This document shows, piece by piece, positions 147 through 24,763 of a stretch of DNA of 64,000 nucleotides. How positions within the stretch are numbered: position 1 is the first letter of the stretch; the number at the start of each line of letters is the position of its first letter. A model generated the notes under the pieces. It saw nothing but the letters and a program-made list of their open reading frames with translations, did no database searches and was not told the DNA's origin. The stretch comes from Arenibacter sp. F20364 (GTDB lineage Bacteria; Bacteroidota; Bacteroidia; Flavobacteriales; Flavobacteriaceae), in assembly GCF_023015905.1 (NCBI RefSeq), contig NZ_JALKBD010000017.1, forward strand, positions 1 through 64,000, in the 5' to 3' direction. The translations under genes and the position numbers were made by a program.

Positions 147-1019
147 TCAACTTTTTAAAACCGACCTAAGGTATTTATTGTTCAAAACATAACTATCAAA
201 CATGTCGGCATTTTCGGGAACGGCACCCTCTATATGTATCCATCCTTCATATTTTATCTCGTCTATCGCTTTTTTGACTTCTGCAAAATCTATTCTGCCC
301 TGTCCCAATAAATAACCGTTCTCTTTGGCATGGAATTCGCAGATGTGCTTTTTGCCCAGCCATCGGATTTCGTCATAAATATTGTACCCCATTTTGTTCG
401 AATTGGCCACATCATAATATACTTGGACATTAGGTGAATTTACCGCGTTGATGATTTCCATATGTTCTTTGGCGCTTAACCAAGATTCTATACCCAAGAT
501 AATACCATTGTCTTCTGCTTTTTTGGCTACTTTTTTTAGCCTTCGAATCGTTTCCTGTGTGCCTTTTAAATCATTTTTAAGGTCTCCATTGTGGAAGAAA
601 GCCAATAGCACGACTTTGACATCCATTTTTTTTGCGACATCTATACTGTCCGATACCCAAAGTTCGGCACGTGGATCCGATTTATAGGGGATGTTGTTCA
701 TTTCCCCGATGGCTATTCCACCTATGGTCATGCCATATTCAAGGCAAGCATCTTTATATTGTTGTTGTATGTGGGCTTGCCTTAGGTGCATATCATTGGC
801 TAAGCTGCCTAGACTTATCTGAACGCCATCCAAGCCAATTTTTTTGCCCACTTGTATCGCCTTCACTTCTGACATTTTCTGAATTGACCAATCGCAGGCA
901 CCAATCTTAAATCGACTTCTTTTTTCCATGGCAAATGCCTCGTAGGCCCCAAGCATACCCAGGCCAAGTATGCCAGCGGAGGATTTTAATACTTCCCTTC
1001 TGGTTATTGCAGCACCCAT
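147..1019 (-). CDS. Tat-exported sugar phosphate isomerase/epimerase-like TIM-barrel protein
   Basis: The protein (290 aa) opens with a twin-arginine signal (TRREVLK at residues 6-12, then a hydrophobic stretch ending AFA near residue 30), so it is probably exported folded to the periplasm. The rest matches the xylose isomerase-like TIM-barrel fold. Candidate metal ligands are Glu178 (GIESW), Asp203 (YYDVAN), His230 and Glu264 (HIEG). Relatives isomerise, epimerise or cleave oxidised sugars; the exact reaction is not readable here. It starts 28 bp after the cytochrome dehydrogenase-like gene on the same strand, so the two are probably cotranscribed. The gene ends at a T TTA AAA run just before its stop; see the finding on a possible -1 frame tail. 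Fold assignment is firm, substrate is unknown. Confidence 0.8.
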   Translation of the reverse strand: MGAAITRREVLKSSAGILGLGMLGAYEAFAMEKRSRFKIGACDWSIQKMSEVKAIQVGKKIGLDGVQISLGSLANDMHLRQAHIQQQYKDACLEYGMTIGGIAIGEMNNIPYKSDPRAELWVSDSIDVAKKMDVKVVLLAFFHNGDLKNDLKGTQETIRRLKKVAKKAEDNGIILGIESWLSAKEHMEIINAVNSPNVQVYYDVANSNKMGYNIYDEIRWLGKKHICEFHAKENGYLLGQGRIDFAEVKKAIDEIKYEGWIHIEGAVPENADMFDSYVLNNKYLRSVLKS

Positions 1020-1047: not shown

Positions 1048-3966
1048 CTATAGTGTACTATTCTTTAATGTCAATAAGTAGGCCGATAAATTGGCCAGAT
1101 CTTGTTCTGTAAGGCCCAGTGCCATTGCACTGGGCATTATGCCCGTCTTCATTTTCTCTTTGCTTTCTATGTCATCGGGGGCAATCACTATCTGTTTGCC
1201 AGTCATATCCTTTAGGACAGTTGTTTCTCCTTCTGAAAGCAGAAAACCGTAAAATGCCTGACCGCTTTTTGTTCTTATCATTACGGGCTCATACCCAAAG
1301 ACAATGGAAGCGTTGGGGTTGATAATGGCATCCAATATTCCTGTTTTGTCAAATTTTTCTCCAATCGAAGATAGATCCGGGCCTATTTCGTTGCCCGTTA
1401 GTCCGTTTTTATGACAGCTAGTGCATTGGGTTAGAAATACACTTTCGCCTTTGGCGGTGTCCCCGTTGTGTTTTAGGATGCTGGGAATGGCATAGTGCTT
1501 CCCTTTGGATTTTATGAAATATTCACTGGCCAAGGTTCTTATTTCCAATGCCGGGTTGTTAAGTATTTCTTCAGAAATACCACTGATCAGTTCATCGGAT
1601 AGTTGGGTTTTAGCTGCTAGACTAATTAGCAATCGGCCGCCGATCAAACTTTTAGCCATCTGATTTCCTGCATCGATCCTTTTCTCCTTTGGGGCGTCCT
1701 TATTCAAAAGCATTTCATTTAGTAATGCAATTTTCTCCGGAATTTTAAAACTTGCCCCTCCTTCTGCTTCCCAATTCCACAATGCATACCAGTCGTTGCT
1801 CTTACGGAAATTTAGCCACCATTTGCTCATTTCCCGTACGGTACTGTCGGAACTTGATTTTTGAATATCGATCATGGCTGCGACTGCCTCCCTGTAATTA
1901 ATAAAGGCAAGTGCGTCAACCGCTTGGTGTTTGGAATTAATGGATAACCCCTCAGATATCGCCCTATCTTTTAAGGCGGTGATGGCCGATTTTGGATGTA
2001 TTCGCCAAACAAGCGAGGCAAAGGTTTCAGACCATTTTGAAGGGTCTTTGGGCTGGTCTGAAAGCAGTTCCCTATAGGTCATTTCTTCCTTGCCGTCCAT
2101 GGCCATACCCAAGGCTTCCAGATACCAGGGGTCATTGTCGTTATATCCCTTAAATAATTCCTTGATAAGGGCACTGCTTTCTTCCCAAGGTGTATCTCGA
2201 AGGGAAATGGCCACTTCTCTTCTCACTTGTGGCGAAGGATCATTGGCCGCTGTTGCGGCATATTTTAAAAAGGATTCAGCATCATCTTTCAGGGCCCTAA
2301 ACGCCACGGTCCTTAATCGGGGGTCCGGTTCGTTTTTTAATACGTTTTTTACAATGGCATTTCCTTGGTTGCCGAGTTTGGACAACAACCAGATGGCTCT
2401 TGATTGATGATAGGGATTGTCTGAATCCAATATTTTCTTGACATCTTCTACAACCTGTTCACCTTGCTCCAGTAATTTTTCAAAGCCCTGGCTTCGAACA
2501 TTTATAGCAGGATTTAGAAGGGCGTCAATTTGGCCTTCAACGGTGCTTAGGTCTATTTTGGGGATCGTTAGATTTTTTCCTTTGGGGCTAATTCTATAGA
2601 TTCGGCCATAGCCTACGGTGTCCATCATCTGGTGGCCGCCTACTACTGGATCATACCAATCGGCAATGTAGATAGCGCCGTCCGTTCCAACGGCCACGTC
2701 ACTTGGACGGAACCATTTTTGTTTGTCTTCATCTATATCGTTCCAAACATATCCTTCGGTAGATTCTGGGGTGGAGGTAATCAAATCGCGTCTATTTAGA
2801 TCAAATCCAGCACCATTTGGTGACGGTTGATAGGCAAATATAACGTTGCGGCCAGCATCGGCACTTAAGAGCATTCCACGATAGTCCTGGCCAAAGGCGT
2901 CCCCTTCGTAAACGACCACGCCAGTGGGTGATCCTGCTCCAGTGTTGTCTCCCGCCGGCATAACCCCCGGGTCGTCTTGGTGCCAATGGGCAGTAAAAAT
3001 ATCCTGTCCAGGTTTACGGTCGGCCTGCCATGTACGTTTGCCGTTTGCGTTGAAATATCCTGCGTTGCCACCTTCCATAAGCCAACTTACCCTGCAGGTG
3101 ACCACTTGATCATCGTTGTCGTTTTGCCACATATTGCCATATGAGTCCAAGGCAACTTCGTAGGAGTTTCGAAAATTGTGGCCTACCACCTCAAGGTCTT
3201 TGCCTTTATTGTTCATTCTTAAAGCCAAACCCCCGACCCAAATACGTCCGTCATCACTGACTTGTGCGGGTTCATTTTTATCGTTGTAAGGGGTTCCGCC
3301 CGAATAAACGCTACCTGAACGTAGTTGCCAACCGCCTTTGTCCGTCACTCGGTGCGGTCCGGCATTTCCAGTGTTGAAATACCATTTTCCGTCCGGACCT
3401 ACTACTAGTGAATGTAGGCTATGGTCGTGGTCAAAACCACCAAATCCCGTAAGAAAAGCTTCTTTTTTATCGGGAACGTCATCGCCATTTTCATCGGTGT
3501 AAACGAAGAGCGTAGGGGCGCAGGATACAAACACCTTATTTCCGACTACAGCTATTCCCAATGGGGCTACAAGATCTTTGTCTTGGACAAATACTTTGGA
3601 GGTATCACTAATTCCATCCCCATCCGTGTCCTCTAGAATCATGACCCGGTCTCCCTTTTCGAAATTTAGGTGATGTTTTGGGTCGTTGTTGAAATCCCTA
3701 TAATTAACGGCTTCAGTAACCCAAATTCTTCCCTTTTCGTCAACATCCATATTTGTTGGGTTGTACAGGGAGGGGGATTCTGCCCATAGGCTTATCTGCC
3801 AACCTTCCGGCACAATAAAGTCATTCTCCACATTGGTCTGATAATTAAGTACGGGGGTTTGGTAGTCCGCCATTCTGTTATCCGCGCAACATGCAAATGA
3901 GAATACCATAAGCATGATGATGCCTTTAGTTAATAAACTGCCCCCTATTTTTTTAATAAATCCCAT
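1048..3966 (-). CDS. Membrane-bound dehydrogenase-like c-type cytochrome lipoprotein (PVC type)
   Basis: A 972-aa protein counted from the ATG at 3966. The longer frame, from a TTG at 4002, would run through an operator-like site and is rejected. Residues 1-30 form a signal with a lipobox-like FSFACC, suggesting an outer-membrane or periplasmic lipoprotein. A beta-propeller-like dehydrogenase region fills the N-terminal half, with GFGGFDHDHSLHS and repeated GPDGKWYFNTGNAG-type blades. Alpha-helical HEAT-like repeats follow, and a C-terminal cytochrome c domain carries CTSCH (Cys848, Cys851, His852). This order matches the membrane-bound dehydrogenase plus heme-binding family abundant in Planctomycetes and also found in Bacteroidetes. 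Inference: it oxidises a sugar or polyol in the periplasm and passes electrons to the respiratory chain. It is the first gene of a pair with the Tat-exported TIM-barrel protein. Confidence 0.82.
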   Translation of the reverse strand: MGFIKKIGGSLLTKGIIMLMVFSFACCADNRMADYQTPVLNYQTNVENDFIVPEGWQISLWAESPSLYNPTNMDVDEKGRIWVTEAVNYRDFNNDPKHHLNFEKGDRVMILEDTDGDGISDTSKVFVQDKDLVAPLGIAVVGNKVFVSCAPTLFVYTDENGDDVPDKKEAFLTGFGGFDHDHSLHSLVVGPDGKWYFNTGNAGPHRVTDKGGWQLRSGSVYSGGTPYNDKNEPAQVSDDGRIWVGGLALRMNNKGKDLEVVGHNFRNSYEVALDSYGNMWQNDNDDQVVTCRVSWLMEGGNAGYFNANGKRTWQADRKPGQDIFTAHWHQDDPGVMPAGDNTGAGSPTGVVVYEGDAFGQDYRGMLLSADAGRNVIFAYQPSPNGAGFDLNRRDLITSTPESTEGYVWNDIDEDKQKWFRPSDVAVGTDGAIYIADWYDPVVGGHQMMDTVGYGRIYRISPKGKNLTIPKIDLSTVEGQIDALLNPAINVRSQGFEKLLEQGEQVVEDVKKILDSDNPYHQSRAIWLLSKLGNQGNAIVKNVLKNEPDPRLRTVAFRALKDDAESFLKYAATAANDPSPQVRREVAISLRDTPWEESSALIKELFKGYNDNDPWYLEALGMAMDGKEEMTYRELLSDQPKDPSKWSETFASLVWRIHPKSAITALKDRAISEGLSINSKHQAVDALAFINYREAVAAMIDIQKSSSDSTVREMSKWWLNFRKSNDWYALWNWEAEGGASFKIPEKIALLNEMLLNKDAPKEKRIDAGNQMAKSLIGGRLLISLAAKTQLSDELISGISEEILNNPALEIRTLASEYFIKSKGKHYAIPSILKHNGDTAKGESVFLTQCTSCHKNGLTGNEIGPDLSSIGEKFDKTGILDAIINPNASIVFGYEPVMIRTKSGQAFYGFLLSEGETTVLKDMTGKQIVIAPDDIESKEKMKTGIMPSAMALGLTEQDLANLSAYLLTLKNSTL

Positions 3967-3988
3967 AGAAAATGTATAATTGCTCACA

Positions 3989-4004
3989 ACATGTGCATAC
4001 AAGT
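3989..4004 (-). promoter_or_regulatory. Putative GntR operator O1 before the cytochrome gene
   Basis: The minus-strand sequence ACTTGTATGCACATGT matches 13 of 16 positions of the perfect palindrome at 11374-11389. It lies 23 bp upstream of the cytochrome gene start at 3966. Repression by the neighbouring GntR protein is inferred. Confidence 0.45.
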
Positions 4005-4308
4005 TAAAATTTAATTTTAAATAATAAGATTATTTTTCATATTTTAATATAGCAGTAGTTTCTTTTTACTGAAAAAATCCATGCTTGTGGAAGTGAAGAA
4101 GGTAGTACGGGTCTTCTTGCTGTAAAGGGATTACCAATCGGCTGTTTTCTATTTGAAGGACTATAATTCAAAGGGATACATTTATACGTTGTACCTTAAT
4201 TGATTTTACCATAGATGGTTATTTTATTGTGACAATAGTTTGGTGACCAGGCCATGCTTGCTAAGCTTTTGCGCTAAATTAGATGTTTTAATGTTTTTGC
4301 TTATTTTA

Positions 4309-4324
4309 ACTTGTCCATACAATA
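4309..4324 (+). promoter_or_regulatory. Putative GntR operator O2 before gntR (autoregulation)
   Basis: ACTTGTCCATACAATA matches 12 of 16 positions of the palindrome at 11374-11389 and lies about 92 bp upstream of the gntR start. Its TTG at 4311-4313 is followed after exactly 19 bp by TGTGTTGG (4333-4340), a weak match to the flavobacterial -7 element TAnnTTTG. The site could therefore cover the gntR promoter. Confidence 0.4.
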
Positions 4325-4416
4325 TATCTGATTGTGTTGGAAAAATTCTATTGTATAATAGTATGATAATGGATAAAAGATAATGTAAATTAGTCAGTCA
4401 TAGCTGAACTTAGAAA

Positions 4417-5127
4417 GTGAAGAAGATAAAAAAGTACCATCAGATTCAAGAGTACATAAAAAAAAGGATACAGACACAAAAGTATCCTCCAGATAGTTAT
4501 TTGCCTTCGGAGAATGAATTTTGTGTGCAATTTGGGACCACAAGAACAACGGTAAGAAAGGCATTGGAAGAACTGTTGAAAGAGGGTTTTATAGCCAAGG
4601 AACAGGGCAAGGGCAGTAAGGTGCTGGAGAGGGGAAAGTATTTAGGACTCTTGTCCGTCAAGGGTTTTTCGGGCTCAACGGATTATAAGGTAAAGACTAG
4701 AGTGACCGTGGAGCCTAAAGTTGTGGAATGGGACCCGATTATTGGTTTCCCGTTATCCGAGGACGAAAAGAGTTCTAAATGCGTCTATTTTCAAAGAGTT
4801 CGTTATATAGATGACAAACCTGTAGTTTTGGAGAATAATTGGTATGCCCTGGACGCCTTGGAGCCTATAAGGTCAGAGGAATTTGTGGAGGGATCTTTTT
4901 TTAAGACGCTTAGTCAGGAATACTTAATAGAGATTATGGGAGCGGAGCAGGAACTAAGGTCGGTGCCGGCTAGCGGGGATATTGCCAAAAAAATGGGGAT
5001 TACAGTTGGGGCCCCTATTCTGCATATATCCATTAGGTTTAGAACTAGTAGGCCCAATCTTAATTTATATGGTGATCTGTATTGCAATACTACGGATTAT
5101 CCTATTAGAAATAGTTATTTTCTGTAG
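4417..5127 (+). CDS. GntR family transcriptional regulator (HutC-type, UTRA domain)
   Basis: A 236-aa regulator. Residues about 5-70 form a GntR winged helix-turn-helix (LPSENEFCVQFGTTRTTVRKAL), and residues about 90-230 form a UTRA ligand-binding domain, which in this family usually senses a sugar phosphate or small metabolite. The start is GTG: an in-frame TAG lies two codons upstream and no internal ATG fits the domain. It sits between the left pair and the six-gene operon and converges with the latter across 20 bp. Three operator-like palindromes in the locus make it the likely local regulator of itself and both units. The ligand is unknown. Confidence 0.9.
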   Translation: MKKIKKYHQIQEYIKKRIQTQKYPPDSYLPSENEFCVQFGTTRTTVRKALEELLKEGFIAKEQGKGSKVLERGKYLGLLSVKGFSGSTDYKVKTRVTVEPKVVEWDPIIGFPLSEDEKSSKCVYFQRVRYIDDKPVVLENNWYALDALEPIRSEEFVEGSFFKTLSQEYLIEIMGAEQELRSVPASGDIAKKMGITVGAPILHISIRFRTSRPNLNLYGDLYCNTTDYPIRNSYFL

Positions 5128-5147
5128 GCTGGCCAAAGTTTAACGGC

Positions 5148-6107
5148 TTAGGTTTTGGAAAAGGCGTATAGTTTTTTAGGATTGTCAAAAAACAGTTTTT
5201 TATGGTGCTCTTCCAAGCCTTTGGATTGTAGAAATTGGGGAATGGTTTCTATAAGGTAATTTAATCCGGGACTGCCTCCATAACTTTTCCAGTAAGCATT
5301 TTTTGCCATATCCATTCCCAGTGTAATTTGATCGGGGTATAGGGGGAGTAGATTTTCCAAAAGATTTAGGGTATAATTTGGTTCTGTTTCTTTCCAGCGG
5401 AAGGCACTGTCGTACTCTAACCGAACTCCAGTATCAAGCACCGCCTTGTTATAATCTACCTCTTTGGCCCGGTCCACATGGGATAGCACTACATGTTGGA
5501 GATTTGCCCCCAATTTTTCGAACAGTTTCGCTTGTTCCAAAGCCTGTTTTCCAAAATTGGTATGTGTTAAAATGGGAGCTCCTGTTTCCAAATGTGCATT
5601 TACGACGGCCCTAAAGATTTTTTCCTGATGTTTATCAATAGGGGTATTTCCAGTAGCCAATTTAATTAGGCCTGCCTTATGCCCGGTCCTTTTTACAAAT
5701 GGTCCTGAATAATCAAATTGATCAATGCCTTTTTCAATATCATCTATAAAAAGCTCTGTCAATTGGTCTTCGGAATAGTGATATCTCCAATGGTTTTCAG
5801 GATAATATATTTCCAAATGAATTCCTGTTGGGACAATGATATTTACCCTACTTAGCTGGCTGACTTCCACCAATTTCATAATGTTGCGGCCACTATTGGC
5901 TGGCATGGTGTCCACTACGGTTCTGCCTCCAGCTTTATAAAAATTCTCAAGCTCCTCGGAAATTTTAGTTAGGTCGTTGAGCAAAAATTCGGGATGAGCG
6001 GCGGTTACATAGCTATCCTCTATAATAATATGTTCATGGGAATAGGTGAGTCCCATTTCCGAAGTTGGCATATCGCCCAAAACTGTTCTAAAAAAATCTT
6101 TAGACAT
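5148..6107 (-). CDS. Phosphotriesterase family metal-dependent hydrolase (lactonase-like)
   Basis: A 319-aa amidohydrolase-superfamily protein of the phosphotriesterase branch. The binuclear metal site is complete: HEH at residues 24-26, the bridging Lys in GLIKLATG, His in ILTHTNFG, His in VVLSHVDRA and Asp in LGMDMAK. Characterised relatives in sugar operons are often lactonases, sometimes for phosphorylated sugar lactones, so ring opening of a lactone is the best guess. The ATG at 6107 lies 5 bp after the stop of the upstream FAD gene; an ATG at 6128 would overlap that gene by 16 bp. It is the last gene of the six-gene operon. Confidence 0.85.
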   Translation of the reverse strand: MSKDFFRTVLGDMPTSEMGLTYSHEHIIIEDSYVTAAHPEFLLNDLTKISEELENFYKAGGRTVVDTMPANSGRNIMKLVEVSQLSRVNIIVPTGIHLEIYYPENHWRYHYSEDQLTELFIDDIEKGIDQFDYSGPFVKRTGHKAGLIKLATGNTPIDKHQEKIFRAVVNAHLETGAPILTHTNFGKQALEQAKLFEKLGANLQHVVLSHVDRAKEVDYNKAVLDTGVRLEYDSAFRWKETEPNYTLNLLENLLPLYPDQITLGMDMAKNAYWKSYGGSPGLNYLIETIPQFLQSKGLEEHHKKLFFDNPKKLYAFSKT

Positions 6108-6112
6108 AATCG

Positions 6113-7483
6113 TTAATTGTTTTTCCATCCATGTCTTGAAGTATCCGCAATTTTATCGGGCATTTCCAAAATAGCCCCAATGTGCGTTAATGTGTCCTGT
6201 AGTTTATAAATATCGATGTTTTTTGCGTTCTGATCGGTCTTCAAAGAGAGTGTGGCAGCCAAACCCGCTGCCTGCCCCATACTCATTGTCTGTGCCATTG
6301 AGCGGCAGGAGGCATGGGCATCATGTGTGGCCGAGAAGCAACGGCCTACGACCCAGGTATTCTGGCTTTCTTTAGGTACAATAGTACCATAAGGCACTCC
6401 ATATACTGCCCCATTGGGAACATACTGCCAAAAAGTTTCGGTTTCTCCTTCGTCCGATTTTCGATGATCCTCTATTGGGGCTCCGCAAAGAAAAATTTGG
6501 TCATCGAAGGTCTTGGCGGTCATACAGTCCTTTTTTGTAAGACGGTATTCCCCATAAACCCTTCGTGTTTCCCGTACCCCAATTTGATGAGAGAGCCCAA
6601 TGATCTTTGCATTTTGATATCCAGGGATCTCCGCCCTGAAAAAATCTTCAAATATAAAGGCTTGTCGGCGCCCTTCAATTTCCGCTTTTGTAATGCCCTC
6701 TACGTCCAAAGGGTCCAGGTCCACTACTTTTACCGCCACAGTGGAAATGCATTTGGGCTGGCACATTTCATGTGCGGATCCCTCTTTACGCGGAAGGGCA
6801 TAAGTTCCCTTTTCAAAGGCCTCCGCCATCCTTTCTTTCAACATTCTTTTTCCTCCTGCCGACTCATACTCTTGTTGTTCTACATTGGCCATACGAAAGG
6901 TGGTGGTCATACTTTGGGCGGACTCATTCTCGCCGGCACGTTCATAGGGAATAGCTGCCCAATGACAGTAATCGGCATCACCAGAAGCGTCTATGACCCG
7001 TTTTGCCGTTATGGAAAAAAAACCCATGCCTTTTTGGAAAAATATGCAGGTGGATGTTTCTCCTGTGCTTTCCACACCTACCAAGGTGGAGTGATAAAAT
7101 AATTGAATACCACTTTTTAGCAAAAGATTGTCCCAAACCTGTTTCAGTTTTTCAGGATTGTAATTCACTCCTGTTCCTGCCCCATAGGTATTGGGGCGCA
7201 GAAAAATATCACCCGATTGGTTTAGGGCGTTGACAATTTTATCGGGAATGCCCCCTACGATTTTCCTTGGGGATTCCGATGGAGTGAAAAAGCCGTAAAA
7301 AGTGTCCAGCATTTGGGTGGAGGTGCCTCCAGGAAAACCGTAGCGTTCCACAAGGGTTACTTTGTATTTTCCGTTCGATGCGGCTATAGCCGCAGTAGAA
7401 CCTGCGCTGCCACTCCCAATAATGAGGATGTCTGTGTAAAACGATTTGGAAATTACGGTTGAAAAATTCATGTTTAAGGTCAT
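6113..7483 (-). CDS. FAD-dependent oxidoreductase
   Basis: A 456-aa flavoprotein with an N-terminal dinucleotide-binding fingerprint (DILIIGSGSAGSTAA, then VTLVERYGFPGG), an internal VIDASGDADYC segment and a C-terminal WVVGRCFSATHDAHASCRSM FAD-contact region. This is the organisation of the FAD-dependent oxidoreductase family common in Bacteroidetes and Planctomycetes sugar loci (FAD_oxidored type). No signal peptide is evident, so it is probably cytoplasmic. A second ATG at 7471 is an equally acceptable start. It is fifth in the operon, 56 bp after the SIS gene. The substrate is not predictable. Confidence 0.83.
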   Translation of the reverse strand: MTLNMNFSTVISKSFYTDILIIGSGSAGSTAAIAASNGKYKVTLVERYGFPGGTSTQMLDTFYGFFTPSESPRKIVGGIPDKIVNALNQSGDIFLRPNTYGAGTGVNYNPEKLKQVWDNLLLKSGIQLFYHSTLVGVESTGETSTCIFFQKGMGFFSITAKRVIDASGDADYCHWAAIPYERAGENESAQSMTTTFRMANVEQQEYESAGGKRMLKERMAEAFEKGTYALPRKEGSAHEMCQPKCISTVAVKVVDLDPLDVEGITKAEIEGRRQAFIFEDFFRAEIPGYQNAKIIGLSHQIGVRETRRVYGEYRLTKKDCMTAKTFDDQIFLCGAPIEDHRKSDEGETETFWQYVPNGAVYGVPYGTIVPKESQNTWVVGRCFSATHDAHASCRSMAQTMSMGQAAGLAATLSLKTDQNAKNIDIYKLQDTLTHIGAILEMPDKIADTSRHGWKNN

Positions 7484-7539
7484 TTAATTACGAAAAATAG
7501 GAATCGCCAGAGAATATTTTGGTAAAGGCTGTTTTGCCA

Positions 7540-8334
7540 TTAATTTTCACCAGTTGTATTTCCCACGTTTTGATATAATTTTGCCATTAAGTGGGCGTGT
7601 TCGTCATAGGCGGATTCGAAAAGATCTACTGCCCGTTTTTCGCCTACAATTTTGCCACTGCTCAATACTTTGGGCGATTTTCCATTTTGATGTAATATCT
7701 TGGCCACCTCGGCTTTTATACAATTTATGAGGAGTACTCCTCCTAAGGTAGAACCTGGGGCAACCGGGGAATCCAGTCCGTTCAAGTATATCATGGCGTC
7801 TCCCAAGGGTGCTCCGGTGTCCAATACCAAATCGGCAAAATCGGTCAATTTTTTACCATCCGACTTTTTGGAGGTACTGCCCTCCAAGTGAAGCTTGCTT
7901 ACCAAGGCAACCACTTTTATATTTCTTTTTTGAAATTCTTCTGCCATTTCTATGGGTACTACATTACAGCCACTAGAAGAAATTACCAGGGCAGTATCCA
8001 TTGGATCAGTGTCAAAATTCCGAAGTATCCTTGCCGCCAATCCAGAGACATTTTCAAGAAACATGGCTTGGCGCTGCCCGTTGGCCCCGACCACCAAATT
8101 GTGGAAGGATAGTGAAAGTTCCACAATAGGGTTGAACCCAGGGAAGGATCCGTATCTTGGCCACATTTCTTCTACCATCATACGACTATGTCCAGATCCA
8201 AAAAGGTGCACCATACGCCCATGTAATATAGATTGGGCAAAAATATTGGCCACTTCTTGAATCTTAGATTCCTGCTTTTCTATTATGGCAATAATGTCTT
8301 TTCCTTTTCCTAGATATTCTTTTGTTAAGCTCAT
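7540..8334 (-). CDS. SIS domain protein, UPF0309-like phosphosugar-binding
   Basis: A 264-aa protein from the ATG at 8334. The SIS (sugar isomerase) fold is shown by HLFGSGHSRMMVEE near the N-terminus and LVISSSGCNVVPIEMAE mid-protein, the two phosphosugar-binding loops. SIS enzymes isomerise, deaminate or bind phosphorylated sugars and amino sugars. An upstream ATG at 8394 would overlap the kinase gene by 47 bp and adds no family-like residues. The gene follows the ROK homologue by 13 bp, consistent with acting on a sugar phosphate. Pairing of this SIS subfamily with a phosphotriesterase-like hydrolase is, from memory, a recurrent arrangement in other bacteria. Confidence 0.82.
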   Translation of the reverse strand: MSLTKEYLGKGKDIIAIIEKQESKIQEVANIFAQSILHGRMVHLFGSGHSRMMVEEMWPRYGSFPGFNPIVELSLSFHNLVVGANGQRQAMFLENVSGLAARILRNFDTDPMDTALVISSSGCNVVPIEMAEEFQKRNIKVVALVSKLHLEGSTSKKSDGKKLTDFADLVLDTGAPLGDAMIYLNGLDSPVAPGSTLGGVLLINCIKAEVAKILHQNGKSPKVLSSGKIVGEKRAVDLFESAYDEHAHLMAKLYQNVGNTTGEN

Positions 8335-8347
8335 TGTTATGTTTTGA

Positions 8348-9256
8348 TTAATTATTGTACTTGGCGAAATAGGCAGCTCCGATGGCGCCTGCATATTCTC
8401 CGTGTTTTGCAGTTATAATTTCTACCTTGTGTTCTCCCGGTCGCCATTCATATCGATCCATATAATCCTTTAGAGGCTTCATTAGTGAATCCTTGGCCCC
8501 TGCAGTGATACCTCCTCCTAAGACCATGAGTTCTGGAGCAAGTATATTGTTTAGCGAGGCGAGGGCTACAGACAGTTTCTTAACCGATTCCAACCACCAA
8601 AATCCCGCATTGTCTTCTCCCGTTTCATAAGCCTGCACTAGTTCCCGAACACTTTTAAACCTACCTTGTGTTCTTTCAAGGACTGAATAATTACCCATGG
8701 CATGTTCCAAGCTACCAGGAATTTTGGTCATGGTAGGGGTGCCATTAATGTCAATAGCCATATGGCCAACGTGACCGGCTCTTTGTAGATTCCCCTGATG
8801 CAGTTTTTTGTCAATTATGATTCCACCGCCAACCCCGGTACCCAAGGTTAGCATGAGCATGTGACGGATTCCATTGGCTTTGTGAAAACTTTCGTATTCC
8901 GCCAAACAAGCCGAATGTCCATCGTTCAATACTTTTATGTCCCTACCTAATTCTGTGGTCCAATCGAAATTTTCTATTCCCTTAAGACGCTCCGGCATAT
9001 GAAGGATTTTTCGGTTCTTTTTATCCACTAGACCTGGGGCGGAGATCCCACATTGTAGCAATCTATGGAGTCCGTTCCCATATTGTTTGGTTTTAAGGTC
9101 GATTTGAGCGGATATTTTTTGTTTCCAGAGTTCATTTTTTCCACTTTCATCTTCGGTCAAAACTTCATTGCGCTCAAGTATTTGGCCTTCTTCGTTTATA
9201 ATAACGGTTTTTATTTTTGTGCCCCCAATGTCTATCCCTAAATAGTGTTTTGTCAT
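8348..9256 (-). CDS. ROK family sugar kinase homologue lacking the zinc cysteines
   Basis: A 302-aa ROK-fold protein. The ATP and sugar motifs are present: phosphate loop DIGGTKIKT (8-17), the catalytic-base region NDGHSAC (111-117), GTGVGGG (129-135) and GHVGH (161-165). ROK kinases phosphorylate glucose, N-acetylglucosamine or similar hexoses. The normal CxCGxxGCxE zinc element is replaced by TMTKIPGSLE (175-184), so all three cysteines are gone while the final Leu-Glu is kept. Kinase activity is likely because the Asp and phosphate loops persist, but sugar specificity may differ. It is third in the six-gene operon, 12 bp after the SDR gene. Confidence 0.83.
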   Translation of the reverse strand: MTKHYLGIDIGGTKIKTVIINEEGQILERNEVLTEDESGKNELWKQKISAQIDLKTKQYGNGLHRLLQCGISAPGLVDKKNRKILHMPERLKGIENFDWTTELGRDIKVLNDGHSACLAEYESFHKANGIRHMLMLTLGTGVGGGIIIDKKLHQGNLQRAGHVGHMAIDINGTPTMTKIPGSLEHAMGNYSVLERTQGRFKSVRELVQAYETGEDNAGFWWLESVKKLSVALASLNNILAPELMVLGGGITAGAKDSLMKPLKDYMDRYEWRPGEHKVEIITAKHGEYAGAIGAAYFAKYNN

Positions 9257-9268
9257 TATCTAAAGCAC

Positions 9269-10054
9269 TTATTGATATTGCCCCTCGCTAATGGTCCATC
9301 CCCCGTCAACTGCCAAGACTTGTCCGGTTATGAATTTCGAATCGGGATGCAAGAACATTAACACGGCAGTGTTGATATCTTCCGAAAATCCCGGCCGCCC
9401 ACCGTCCAGAGGTTGTTTGGTTCTAAGGAATTCCATAATCTGGTCGTCATTTACCGCCCGTTGAGCCATGGGAGTCATAAAAAGACTCGGGGCAATGACG
9501 TTAATTCTGATATTGTTCCCGGCATAATAAGCTGCGATAGATTTTGAAAATCCAATTACAGCCGATTTTGCTGCGGCATATGCGTGGGTAGTAAAATATT
9601 TTGGGGAAGGGGAGTAGCCCAACACCGATCCCATATTCAAAATGGTTCCTGATTTTTTATGTTCCAGAAAATAATTTATTAGAGCCTGATTGGATAACAT
9701 TAGGGAAGTAAGGTTCAGTTCCATGGTCTTGTTCCATCCCTCCAAGCTTATTTTATCGAGTGGGCCATCGCCCCATTTTCGACCACTTCCACCGGCAACA
9801 TGAAATAATCCAGTAATAGATCCAAATGTTTTATGAGCCATTTGAATAGCCGTTTTAATGGTTTCTGGATCGGTGGCATCCCCTTCTAAAGAAATGCTTC
9901 CCTGGCCTAGCATTTCCTGCGCTTTTTCGCAATTATCCAAGTTTCTACCTACTACCATTATGTTGGCGCCCTTGGTTTTTAAAGCTATAGAGGCGGCAAG
10001 GCCCATTCCAGTGGTACCGCCCATTATTATATAGGTACAATTTTTAAAATCCAT
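9269..10054 (-). CDS. Short-chain dehydrogenase/reductase (SDR)
   Basis: A 261-aa classical SDR. It has the NAD(P)-binding GGTTGMGLA near the N-terminus, a VAGG variant of the NNAG motif, a Ser in NMGSVLG, and the catalytic YAAAK in HAYAAAKSA, followed by the usual PLDGGRPGFSEDINTAVLMFL and VDGGW ending. It probably oxidises or reduces a sugar hydroxyl in the cytoplasm. It is second in the operon, 20 bp after the Gfo/Idh gene and 12 bp before the kinase homologue. The substrate is not known. Confidence 0.87.
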   Translation of the reverse strand: MDFKNCTYIIMGGTTGMGLAASIALKTKGANIMVVGRNLDNCEKAQEMLGQGSISLEGDATDPETIKTAIQMAHKTFGSITGLFHVAGGSGRKWGDGPLDKISLEGWNKTMELNLTSLMLSNQALINYFLEHKKSGTILNMGSVLGYSPSPKYFTTHAYAAAKSAVIGFSKSIAAYYAGNNIRINVIAPSLFMTPMAQRAVNDDQIMEFLRTKQPLDGGRPGFSEDINTAVLMFLHPDSKFITGQVLAVDGGWTISEGQYQ

Positions 10055-10074
10055 TGGGTTATAGGAAATAGCGT

Positions 10075-11277
10075 TTAATTATTGGCATGGGTTACTTTTT
10101 GTGTTACCGTACCAGTTTTTTTGTGTTTTAATATCAACGTAATGTCGCCATTGGGAAGCACCTCTTTTTTTATAAGATAGTGGTCATCATCATAGGAATT
10201 CCAACTTTTTTGTTGTTGAAAAGGCTCATCGCCTCGCCAATCTTCCAGAACAACAGGTTCCCACAATTTACTTTCCGCTGATTTATAGGCAGCGTCCAAA
10301 ATAGCATTTACCACATAACCATCATAAAATGTTTCAAGAGGTGACCTGTTTTCTTCAATGGCCGTAAACATATCTGTAAACATATGGGGGTAACCCAGTT
10401 CGTGGGCCTCGTCCCCAACGGGAAATAGCCAACCTGTGTTCGACTCTACCTTTTCGGCCACGTAGCCTTCATCTCCTTTTCCGGTTGTGAACATTTCAAA
10501 TCCTGTACGCAAAAAGCTGTTTATCCATATAGTTCCCTCGGTACCCATAACCTCATCGCGCAGATCCATTCCTCCGCGGAAGGTCCAGCTAACTTCGAAT
10601 TGCCCTATGGCCCCATTGGCATATTTTACCAGTCCAATGGCATGATCTTCGGCGTCGATGGGATGTACTTGGGTGTCGGCCCAGCACATGACCTCCAAAG
10701 GTTTAATATCTTTACCAATAAAATTTCGACCTATTTCTACGCAGTGGCATCCCAGATCAATGATGGCACCACCTCCAGATTTTTCCTTATCCCAAAACCA
10801 ATCGCTATGGGGTCCAGGATGCGCCTCCCTCGATTTTGTCCAAAGTACTTTGCCAATTTCTCCGCGCTTAATGCTAGCCATGGATTTTAGAAATTTTGGC
10901 GTGTAGCAAAGGTCTTCAAGATATCCTCCAAAAATTCCGGCTTCTTCAACCATATCCAACATGCGCTTGGCTTCCTCGGCAGTACGGCCCAAGGGCTTTG
11001 TGCAGATGACATGTTTTTTATACTTGGTACATTCGCGAACGGCAGCCTCGTGCAAATGGTTGGGTAAGGATATAAGTACCACTTCAACCTCAGGGTGTGC
11101 TATGGCTTCTTCCATAGAGGTGGAGTAGTGTGGCAAGTTATAATCGTTTGCAAACCGTTTGGCATTTTTTTTATTACGTGAATAGACCATTACCAAATGA
11201 TCTTTGCGTCTTTGGGAATGCAGTGATTCGGCATAAAACCGGGCGATAAAGCCAGAGCCTAACATGGCTATTTTCAT
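10075..11277 (-). CDS. Gfo/Idh/MocA family oxidoreductase
   Basis: A 400-aa NAD(P)-dependent sugar dehydrogenase. The Rossmann motif is MLGSGFIARFYAESL at the N-terminus, the CTKPLG motif equals the usual EKP segment, and GGGAIIDLGCHCVEIG holds the catalytic-domain His. Members oxidise or reduce a sugar ring hydroxyl, often at C3, or act on inositols. A hydrophilic tail of about 45 residues (from WRGDEPFQQQK) is longer than in many relatives. It is the first gene of the six-gene operon; the upstream region carries a strong promoter-like element overlapped by a perfect palindrome. Confidence 0.87.
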   Translation of the reverse strand: MKIAMLGSGFIARFYAESLHSQRRKDHLVMVYSRNKKNAKRFANDYNLPHYSTSMEEAIAHPEVEVVLISLPNHLHEAAVRECTKYKKHVICTKPLGRTAEEAKRMLDMVEEAGIFGGYLEDLCYTPKFLKSMASIKRGEIGKVLWTKSREAHPGPHSDWFWDKEKSGGGAIIDLGCHCVEIGRNFIGKDIKPLEVMCWADTQVHPIDAEDHAIGLVKYANGAIGQFEVSWTFRGGMDLRDEVMGTEGTIWINSFLRTGFEMFTTGKGDEGYVAEKVESNTGWLFPVGDEAHELGYPHMFTDMFTAIEENRSPLETFYDGYVVNAILDAAYKSAESKLWEPVVLEDWRGDEPFQQQKSWNSYDDDHYLIKKEVLPNGDITLILKHKKTGTVTQKVTHANN

Positions 11278-11357
11278 AGTAGTGTTTTTAACTTCAATTT
11301 ACCTGTTTTAAATCTCCTTAAGAAAACAATAAAAGGTAACTGAAAAAAGTGACTATG

Positions 11358-11387
11358 TAAATATAAGAATTTTACTTGTACGTACAA
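11358..11387 (-). promoter_or_regulatory. Flavobacterial-type promoter of the six-gene operon
   Basis: On the minus strand TTG (11387-11385) is followed after exactly 19 bp by TATATTTA (11365-11358). Bacteroidetes primary-sigma promoters have TTG-N19-TAnnTTTG; only the last base differs. It lies about 80 bp upstream of the Gfo/Idh ATG. Confidence 0.55.
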
Positions 11388-11389
11388 GT
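11374..11389. promoter_or_regulatory. Perfect 16-bp palindrome, putative GntR operator O3
   Basis: ACTTGTACGTACAAGT is its own reverse complement. It covers the -33 TTG and part of the spacer of the predicted promoter, so a bound dimer would exclude RNA polymerase. Its form resembles operators of repressors with GntR-type DNA-binding domains, such as AraR. The likely partner is the GntR protein encoded at 4417-5127. Confidence 0.6.
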
Positions 11390-24732: not shown

Positions 24733-24763
24733 ATAAAAAAAGCCCTTTTTAAAAAGGGCTTCT
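24733..24763 (-). terminator. Intrinsic terminator after gldJ
   Basis: AAGCCCTTTTT and its exact complement form a perfect 22-bp palindrome (24740-24761). On the minus strand it is followed by a run of seven T, giving a classical rho-independent terminator between gldJ and murF. Confidence 0.85.

Follow-up and report, generated by a model that had tools for sequence, protein, structure and literature searches.

A probable palindromic operator at the gntR locus

A 64,000-nucleotide stretch of DNA of the marine flavobacterium Arenibacter sp. F20364 (contig NZ_JALKBD010000017.1, positions 1 to 64,000; the window) carries a gntR gene whose product is very probably a HutC-type repressor that controls its own locus through one palindrome repeated at three promoters and that would be released by a sugar. 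The GntR (4417-5127) dimer would bind the 16-bp palindrome ACTTGTACGTACAAGT before a six-gene operon, and weaker versions of it before a cytochrome unit and before gntR itself. At the operon head, an operator arm would supply a TTG at about -33, with a TAnnTTTA -7 box 19-20 nt on, and the bound repressor would cover the -33 region, keeping RNA polymerase off. Repression by occlusion of the -33 region is the most likely mode of control predicted here; it would be relieved when the UTRA domain binds an effector and the repressor lets go, a pathway sugar, free or phosphorylated, being the most likely candidate. This reading is carried by the positions of the sites, their conservation, their co-occurrence with gntR, their tracking of operon heads and their fixed spacing to a -7-like box.

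3989..4004: operator 1, ACATGTGCATACAAGT, 13/16 positions as in ACTTGTACGTACAAGT, upstream of the cytochrome gene
4309..4324: operator 2, ACTTGTCCATACAATA, 12/16 positions as in ACTTGTACGTACAAGT, upstream of gntR
11374..11389: operator 3, ACTTGTACGTACAAGT without mismatch (perfect palindrome), upstream of the six-gene operon
4417..5127, + strand: gntR, helix-turn-helix (HTH) and UTRA domain, HutC-type regulator, GTG start

A scan of the window confirmed the perfect palindrome and its 13/16 and 12/16 versions at the positions given in a preliminary description of this DNA, and the gene coordinates bear out its layout of three units with gntR in the middle. With up to 3 mismatches to ACTTGTACGTACAAGT allowed, the window contains only the matches at 11374 (0 mismatches) and 3989 (3 mismatches), where shuffles expect 0.11, and raising the limit to 4 mismatches adds 4309 alone in 64 kb. 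Within the 450-bp divergent region (3967-4416), such a pair (up to 3 and up to 4 mismatches) arose in 1/20000 dinucleotide shuffles. Perfect palindromy was rejected as proof of an operator and is treated as weak evidence, because the window has four perfect 16-bp palindromes. A further one, CCCTTTTTAAAAAGGG, is found at 24743-24758 in the gap separating two minus-strand open reading frames (ORFs).

Site scans used patterns with mismatch limits rather than a matrix, with the reversed motif as control. In the organism's own genome, ACTTGTRYRYACAAGT at up to one mismatch hits two sites of the locus only (control 0). At up to 3 mismatches, 13 places compare with 20 for the reversed control; these loose matches are not enriched and are therefore regarded as noise. 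No sign of a wider regulon was seen in this genome with looser patterns (13/20, 195/306 and 7/6 against the reversed control).

Conservation of the site and co-occurrence with gntR

The orthologue search returned 16 loci, of which L020 (22% identity) was dropped as non-orthologous, leaving 15; the nearest are those of Arenibacter, with 88-93% GntR identity. In 13/15 loci the site is found at the start of the structural operon, as an exact copy in 12 and with one mismatch in L015. For L012, L013 and L016 the operon head lay beyond the first locus and was fetched as L075, L074 and L076, respectively, that of L013 being on a different contig of the same genome. In the remaining two loci, L018 and L019, an exact site is found instead where the metE-like gene and gntR diverge, and the expectation that the sites would be conserved beside orthologous gntR genes is thereby borne out. 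Eight loci (L014, L074, L075, L076, L147, L149, L150 and L151) have an AP_endonuc_2 gene ahead of the Gfo gene, and there the exact site precedes the AP_endonuc_2 gene. Thus, the site tracks the operon head.

Alignments of 7 Arenibacter loci, window included, revealed that the three sites are conserved stretches amid diverged intergenic DNA. Operator 1 displays a mean conservation of 0.99, against 0.72 for the divergent region, and matches at 13/16 or better in 7/7 loci. Operator 2 retains only the core ACTTGTnnnnACAA in the window, and this core is present in 7/7 loci with a mean conservation of 0.93 against 0.72. Operator 3 reaches 1.00 against 0.63, with 8/251 alignment windows as high (ranks here and below count overlapping windows and coding edges).

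Co-occurrence was assessed in 397 genomes from the family of the window, with gntR called at E ≤ 1e-40. This gntR is present in 14 of the 397 and the exact 16-mer in 11, all within the 14, and 12/12 copies of the 16-mer are at the gntR locus, within about 10 kb on the same contig. The hypergeometric probability is 4e-19, or 8e-11 when the 8 gntR genomes already seen are omitted, neither value being corrected for relatedness. Of the three gntR genomes lacking the exact 16-mer, G035 and G301 have one-mismatch sites and G010 weaker ones. The absence of the site elsewhere, which the preliminary description names as support, holds for the exact 16-mer, found in 0/383 family genomes without this gntR, but not for one-mismatch matches, which do occur in such genomes. 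Within the genus (18 genomes, counting that of the organism itself), the same 7 genomes share the exact site, a gntR with 88% identity or more and a SIS gene with 90% or more. Site, regulator and operon thus travel together. In G010 (L122:819-6813), an Arenibacter genome without a close SIS gene, a 73% GntR and a SusC/SusD-type pair face each other across two weak sites.

More distant relatives help to separate the link between regulator and site from the enzyme operon. G310 (L152) encodes a 50%-identical GntR and has two exact sites (L152:1164 and L152:5787) beside an AraC-type gene and genes for a melibiase, an apiosidase, a PfkB kinase, a permease (transporter) and an aldolase, that is, the same operator with a different sugar gene set. 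In G271, a 37%-identical GntR paralogue is accompanied by ACTTGTATAGACAGGT with TATATTTG at spacer 20 before neighbouring genes.

Across 15 related genomes, up to one mismatch yields 32 places (control 0), 24 at the gntR/operon locus and 8 off-locus; the off-locus sites L069, L079 and L080 are inside long ORFs. In Pareuzebyella, a 15/16 off-locus site (L070:4956-4971), followed at spacer 20 by TATTTTTG, precedes a PSCyt/DUF1501 unit, and another 15/16 site (L068:5108-5123), with no -7 box at the usual spacing, precedes a 3-keto-disaccharide-hydrolase/PVC-type unit. Both are possible extra targets, and the regulon may have come to include further planctomycete-type cytochrome genes. The other three off-locus sites, of the ACTTGTATATACAAAT type, recur in three genomes (L071:5154, L072:5025 and L073:4966), with a mirror-like ORF layout around the site in L071 and L072 and a YceI-like gene near that of L071.

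Geometry of operator arm and -7 box

According to the accessible text of two studies, the consensus for the Bacteroidetes primary sigma factor is TAnnTTTG at -7 and TTTG at -33 (PMC2483708, PMC7366714). A -7-like box was defined as TAnnTTTA/G with 5 or 6 of the 6 fixed positions, the spacer being counted from the TTG of the operator arm. Two elements of the window are relevant here:

11358..11365, - strand: TATATTTA, candidate -7 element for transcription of the operon, 19 nt past the operator-arm TTG
4006..4013, - strand: TAAATTTT, adjoining operator 1 on its upstream side (cytochrome strand), present in 6/7 Arenibacter loci (by eye)

A -7-like box is found at spacer 19-20 in 13/14 operon heads, the exception being L017, and in 7/8 when Arenibacter is counted once; its last base is A in 12/13 heads. 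In divergent regions with a single site, the box is located 19-20 nt away in 4/5 directions on the gntR side and 5/5 on the metE side. The position of the box at a fixed distance from the operator arm agrees with a HutC-type repressor that covers the -33 region. A CTTG is present at the -33 position but is fixed by the palindrome itself.

These regularities raise the possibility, which we judge evenly balanced, that in this lineage the palindrome doubles as operator and as -33 element for a promoter on either side. From each arm would come the TTG that goes with a -7 box 19-20 nt further on, one repressor dimer would shut two back-to-back promoters, and drift of the operator would harm the promoter, so that the operator would be constrained. 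Such a dual role, if true, would explain a letter-perfect 16-mer despite 50% regulator identity and a changed gene set. Several points weigh against the repressor reading given at the outset. The spacer of 19-20 was picked after the sites had been seen, and shuffles reaching each of the box counts above, 0/5000 per test, overstate the case; the loci fetched later provide a fairer check, with the box at 19-20 in 10/11 directions (the miss is the AraC side of L152). The TTG belongs to the palindrome, and a -33 role is indistinguishable from the operator role. No -33 motif was identifiable in Flavobacterium johnsoniae, as far as the accessible text of that study goes (PMC7366714). Finally, no -7 box reaching 5 of 6 positions is found 19-20 nt from operators 1 and 2 of the window. 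It is possible that TAAATTTT is the -7 box of the cytochrome unit and, because it is located on the upstream side of operator 1, our guess is that this operator may lie at the transcription start instead of at -33.

Extent of the regulon and alternative explanations

The 7 Arenibacter loci have a site between gntR and its divergent neighbour, with only the core before gntR. Sites proximal to gntR with both arms complete were observed in L011, L013, L014, L018, L019 and L148, and L015 has a 14/16 version. Against a general control of gntR by its own product, no gntR-proximal site was found in L016, L017, L147, L149, L150 and L151, and that of L012 reaches just 12/16. No cytochrome or MetE-like gene was found adjoining gntR in these seven loci either, although for L016 and L017 little is visible or fewer proteins were used in the comparison. 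Because the loci without a proximal site are also those without such a neighbour, autoregulation seems to accompany the divergent cytochrome/metE-like unit rather than to be general. The preliminary description had joined nine genes in one regulon including autoregulation: the predicted nine-gene regulon is well supported in Arenibacter, whereas support for autoregulation is weaker, because in seven other loci no gntR-proximal site is convincing. In L011, L013, L014, L018, L019 and L148, gntR and the cytochrome gene are separated by genes for a MetE-like and a metallo-beta-lactamase-fold protein; the MetE-like pair (e.g. L011:6982-8852) is not in that place in the window or in L005-L010.

A smaller regulon, in which only the site at 11374 works while those at 3989 and 4309 are chance matches or decayed remnants, is rather unlikely. 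Speaking for such a reduction, these two sites deviate from ACTTGTACGTACAAGT at 3 and 4 positions and are not followed by a -7 box at 19-20 nt, and the gntR-proximal site is missing or doubtful in the seven loci just described; however, the conservation of operator 1 and of the operator 2 core in Arenibacter well exceeds that of their region (0.99 and 0.93 against 0.72), and six non-Arenibacter loci (L011, L013, L014, L018, L019 and L148) have both arms complete in the same region. An activator, or a regulator acting both ways, that binds the palindrome and aids RNA polymerase from the -33 region would equally have its operator a constant distance ahead of the -7 box, as expected of an activator site overlapping -33. 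We nevertheless regard activation as improbable, given that the nearest solved relatives by sequence, YvoA and DasR, are named repressors and that single-site divergent regions have a -7-like box on both sides of the palindrome, which fits occlusion of both promoters.

Enzyme operon, gntR and site occur together in most genomes and co-occurrence alone cannot name the binder, so the palindrome might belong to another regulator, the GntR gene being a bystander in the cluster. This is very improbable in view of the exact sites that accompany the 50%-identical GntR of G310 beside a different gene set, the ACTTGTATAGACAGGT and TATATTTG pair before the neighbours of the 37%-identical paralogue of G271, and the GT-N4-AC pattern, which is that of HutC regulators in the accessible text of a survey (PMC4494728). 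Three further observations count against control of the locus by the GntR repressor through the palindrome: one-mismatch matches in genomes without gntR occur at about the level of the reversed control, 29/501 and 14/499 alignment windows match the conservation of operators 2 and 1, respectively, and the structural operon of L018 and L019 is without a full site. In the genomes of these two loci, the region some 100-130 bases ahead of the Gfo gene (L077 and L078) still contains a -7-like box; L077 also retains the adjoining arm, and the far arm is missing from both (all by eye). Loss of the full palindrome there is perhaps an escape from control.

Gene products of the locus

The two runs of structural genes, in the order of their coordinates, are as follows:

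147..1019, - strand: xylose-isomerase-like TIM-barrel enzyme, downstream of the cytochrome gene
1048..3966, - strand: PVC-type heme-binding cytochrome protein (DUF7133, HEAT, cytochrome c), start codon uncertain
5148..6128, - strand: phosphotriesterase-family enzyme, operon gene 6
6113..7483, - strand: flavin adenine dinucleotide (FAD)-dependent oxidoreductase (PF12831), operon gene 5
7540..8394, - strand: SIS-domain phosphosugar enzyme, related to NagS (SCO4393), operon gene 4
8348..9256, - strand: ROK-family sugar kinase, operon gene 3
9269..10054, - strand: short-chain dehydrogenase (SDR), operon gene 2
10075..11277, - strand: Gfo/Idh/MocA oxidoreductase, operon gene 1

The six-gene minus-strand run (5148-11277) displays gaps of at most 56 bp or overlaps, the cytochrome-type and TIM-barrel genes form a second minus-strand run from 147 to about 3966, and gntR (+) sits between the two. 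From this spacing we infer that each run is a single transcript. The domains point to a sugar that is oxidised, phosphorylated, either isomerised or dehydrated, and hydrolysed as a lactone, and the nine genes would together serve one catabolic pathway. A literature search for a cluster with such enzymes found nothing. The nearest NCBIfam model of the phosphotriesterase-family enzyme is phospho-furanose lactonase, with a score below its cut-off. The ROK kinase gene is absent from the operon in 5/6 other Arenibacter loci (L006-L010; tblastn at 1e-20, within the locus), in which the SIS and SDR matches are just 33-90 bp apart, and is retained in L005 and the window.

The SIS protein aligns with NagS, the N-acetylglucosamine (GlcNAc)-6-phosphate dehydratase SCO4393, over query residues 27-251. 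According to the accessible text on NagS, His-53, Arg-64, Glu-94 and Asp-179 are essential for activity, Ser-91 and Asn-228 are important for catalysis, and the reaction is limited to Streptomycetaceae (PMC12680351). Counted by eye, H53, S54, R64, E94, S119, S121 and D179 are kept in the SIS protein, while S91 is replaced by Met and N228 by Lys; it thus keeps the essential residues of NagS but not S91/N228, and its substrate and reaction may differ. Because of this alignment, with the essential residues kept and S91/N228 not, a phosphorylated sugar is a plausible pathway intermediate and effector.

Class of the regulator and relation to known systems

GntR comprises an N-terminal HTH domain (PF00392; 56 bits, cut-off 27) and a C-terminal UTRA domain (PF07702; 65.7 bits, cut-off 23.8). 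None of the named NCBIfam equivalogs (TreR, HutC, PhnF, PhnR and others, 24 families listed) reaches its cut-off, the best score being that of TreR (104 bits against 212). The nearest solved structures by sequence are YvoA (E 4e-17) and DasR (E 4e-12), and the RVR residues aligned with them presumably have a role in effector binding. The operator, with arms ACTTGT and ACAAGT around ACGT, fits the HutC rule of GT and AC 4 nt apart, as given in the accessible part of the survey (PMC4494728). Domains and operator pattern together place GntR in the HutC subfamily, for which DNA binding and a response to an effector are predicted.

A full-text search returned no paper with this 16-mer, RegPrecise not being searched, and the literature search, limited to partly accessible texts, found no earlier description of the regulon. 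The regulon appears new but of a known kind, a sugar-gene regulon, so that its novelty is modest; the proposed overlap of operator and promoter stands out. The site offers a handle on the catabolic cluster and names the genes expected to be induced together. Among these genes is a planctomycete-type cytochrome, whose predicted link to the sugar enzymes annotation alone would miss, and the fixed geometry of operator and -7 box bears on the use of -33 elements in flavobacterial promoters, none having been identified in the accessible text on F. johnsoniae (PMC7366714).

As in the HutC regulators surveyed by Suvorova et al. (2015), the protein combines a GntR HTH with a UTRA domain and the sites are GT-N4-AC palindromes; single sites in divergent regions serving both operons are described in the accessible part of that survey, and likewise double sites, each close to its own operon (PMC4494728). 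The class is thinly charted in Bacteroidetes, to which the present GntR belongs: the same part of the survey lists 1 regulator from this phylum among 389 (PMC4494728). Among Bacteroidetes, FucR and ManR of Bacteroides thetaiotaomicron are likewise GntR-family sugar regulators, assigned to fucose and mannose pathways in the accessible text (PMC3878776), a likeness drawn by family and not by comparison of operators. The nearest solved relatives, YvoA/NagR of Bacillus subtilis and DasR of Streptomyces, are named repressors, in keeping with the role proposed here. They govern amino-sugar genes; their similarity to the present GntR is remote and their gene set differs from that of the locus.

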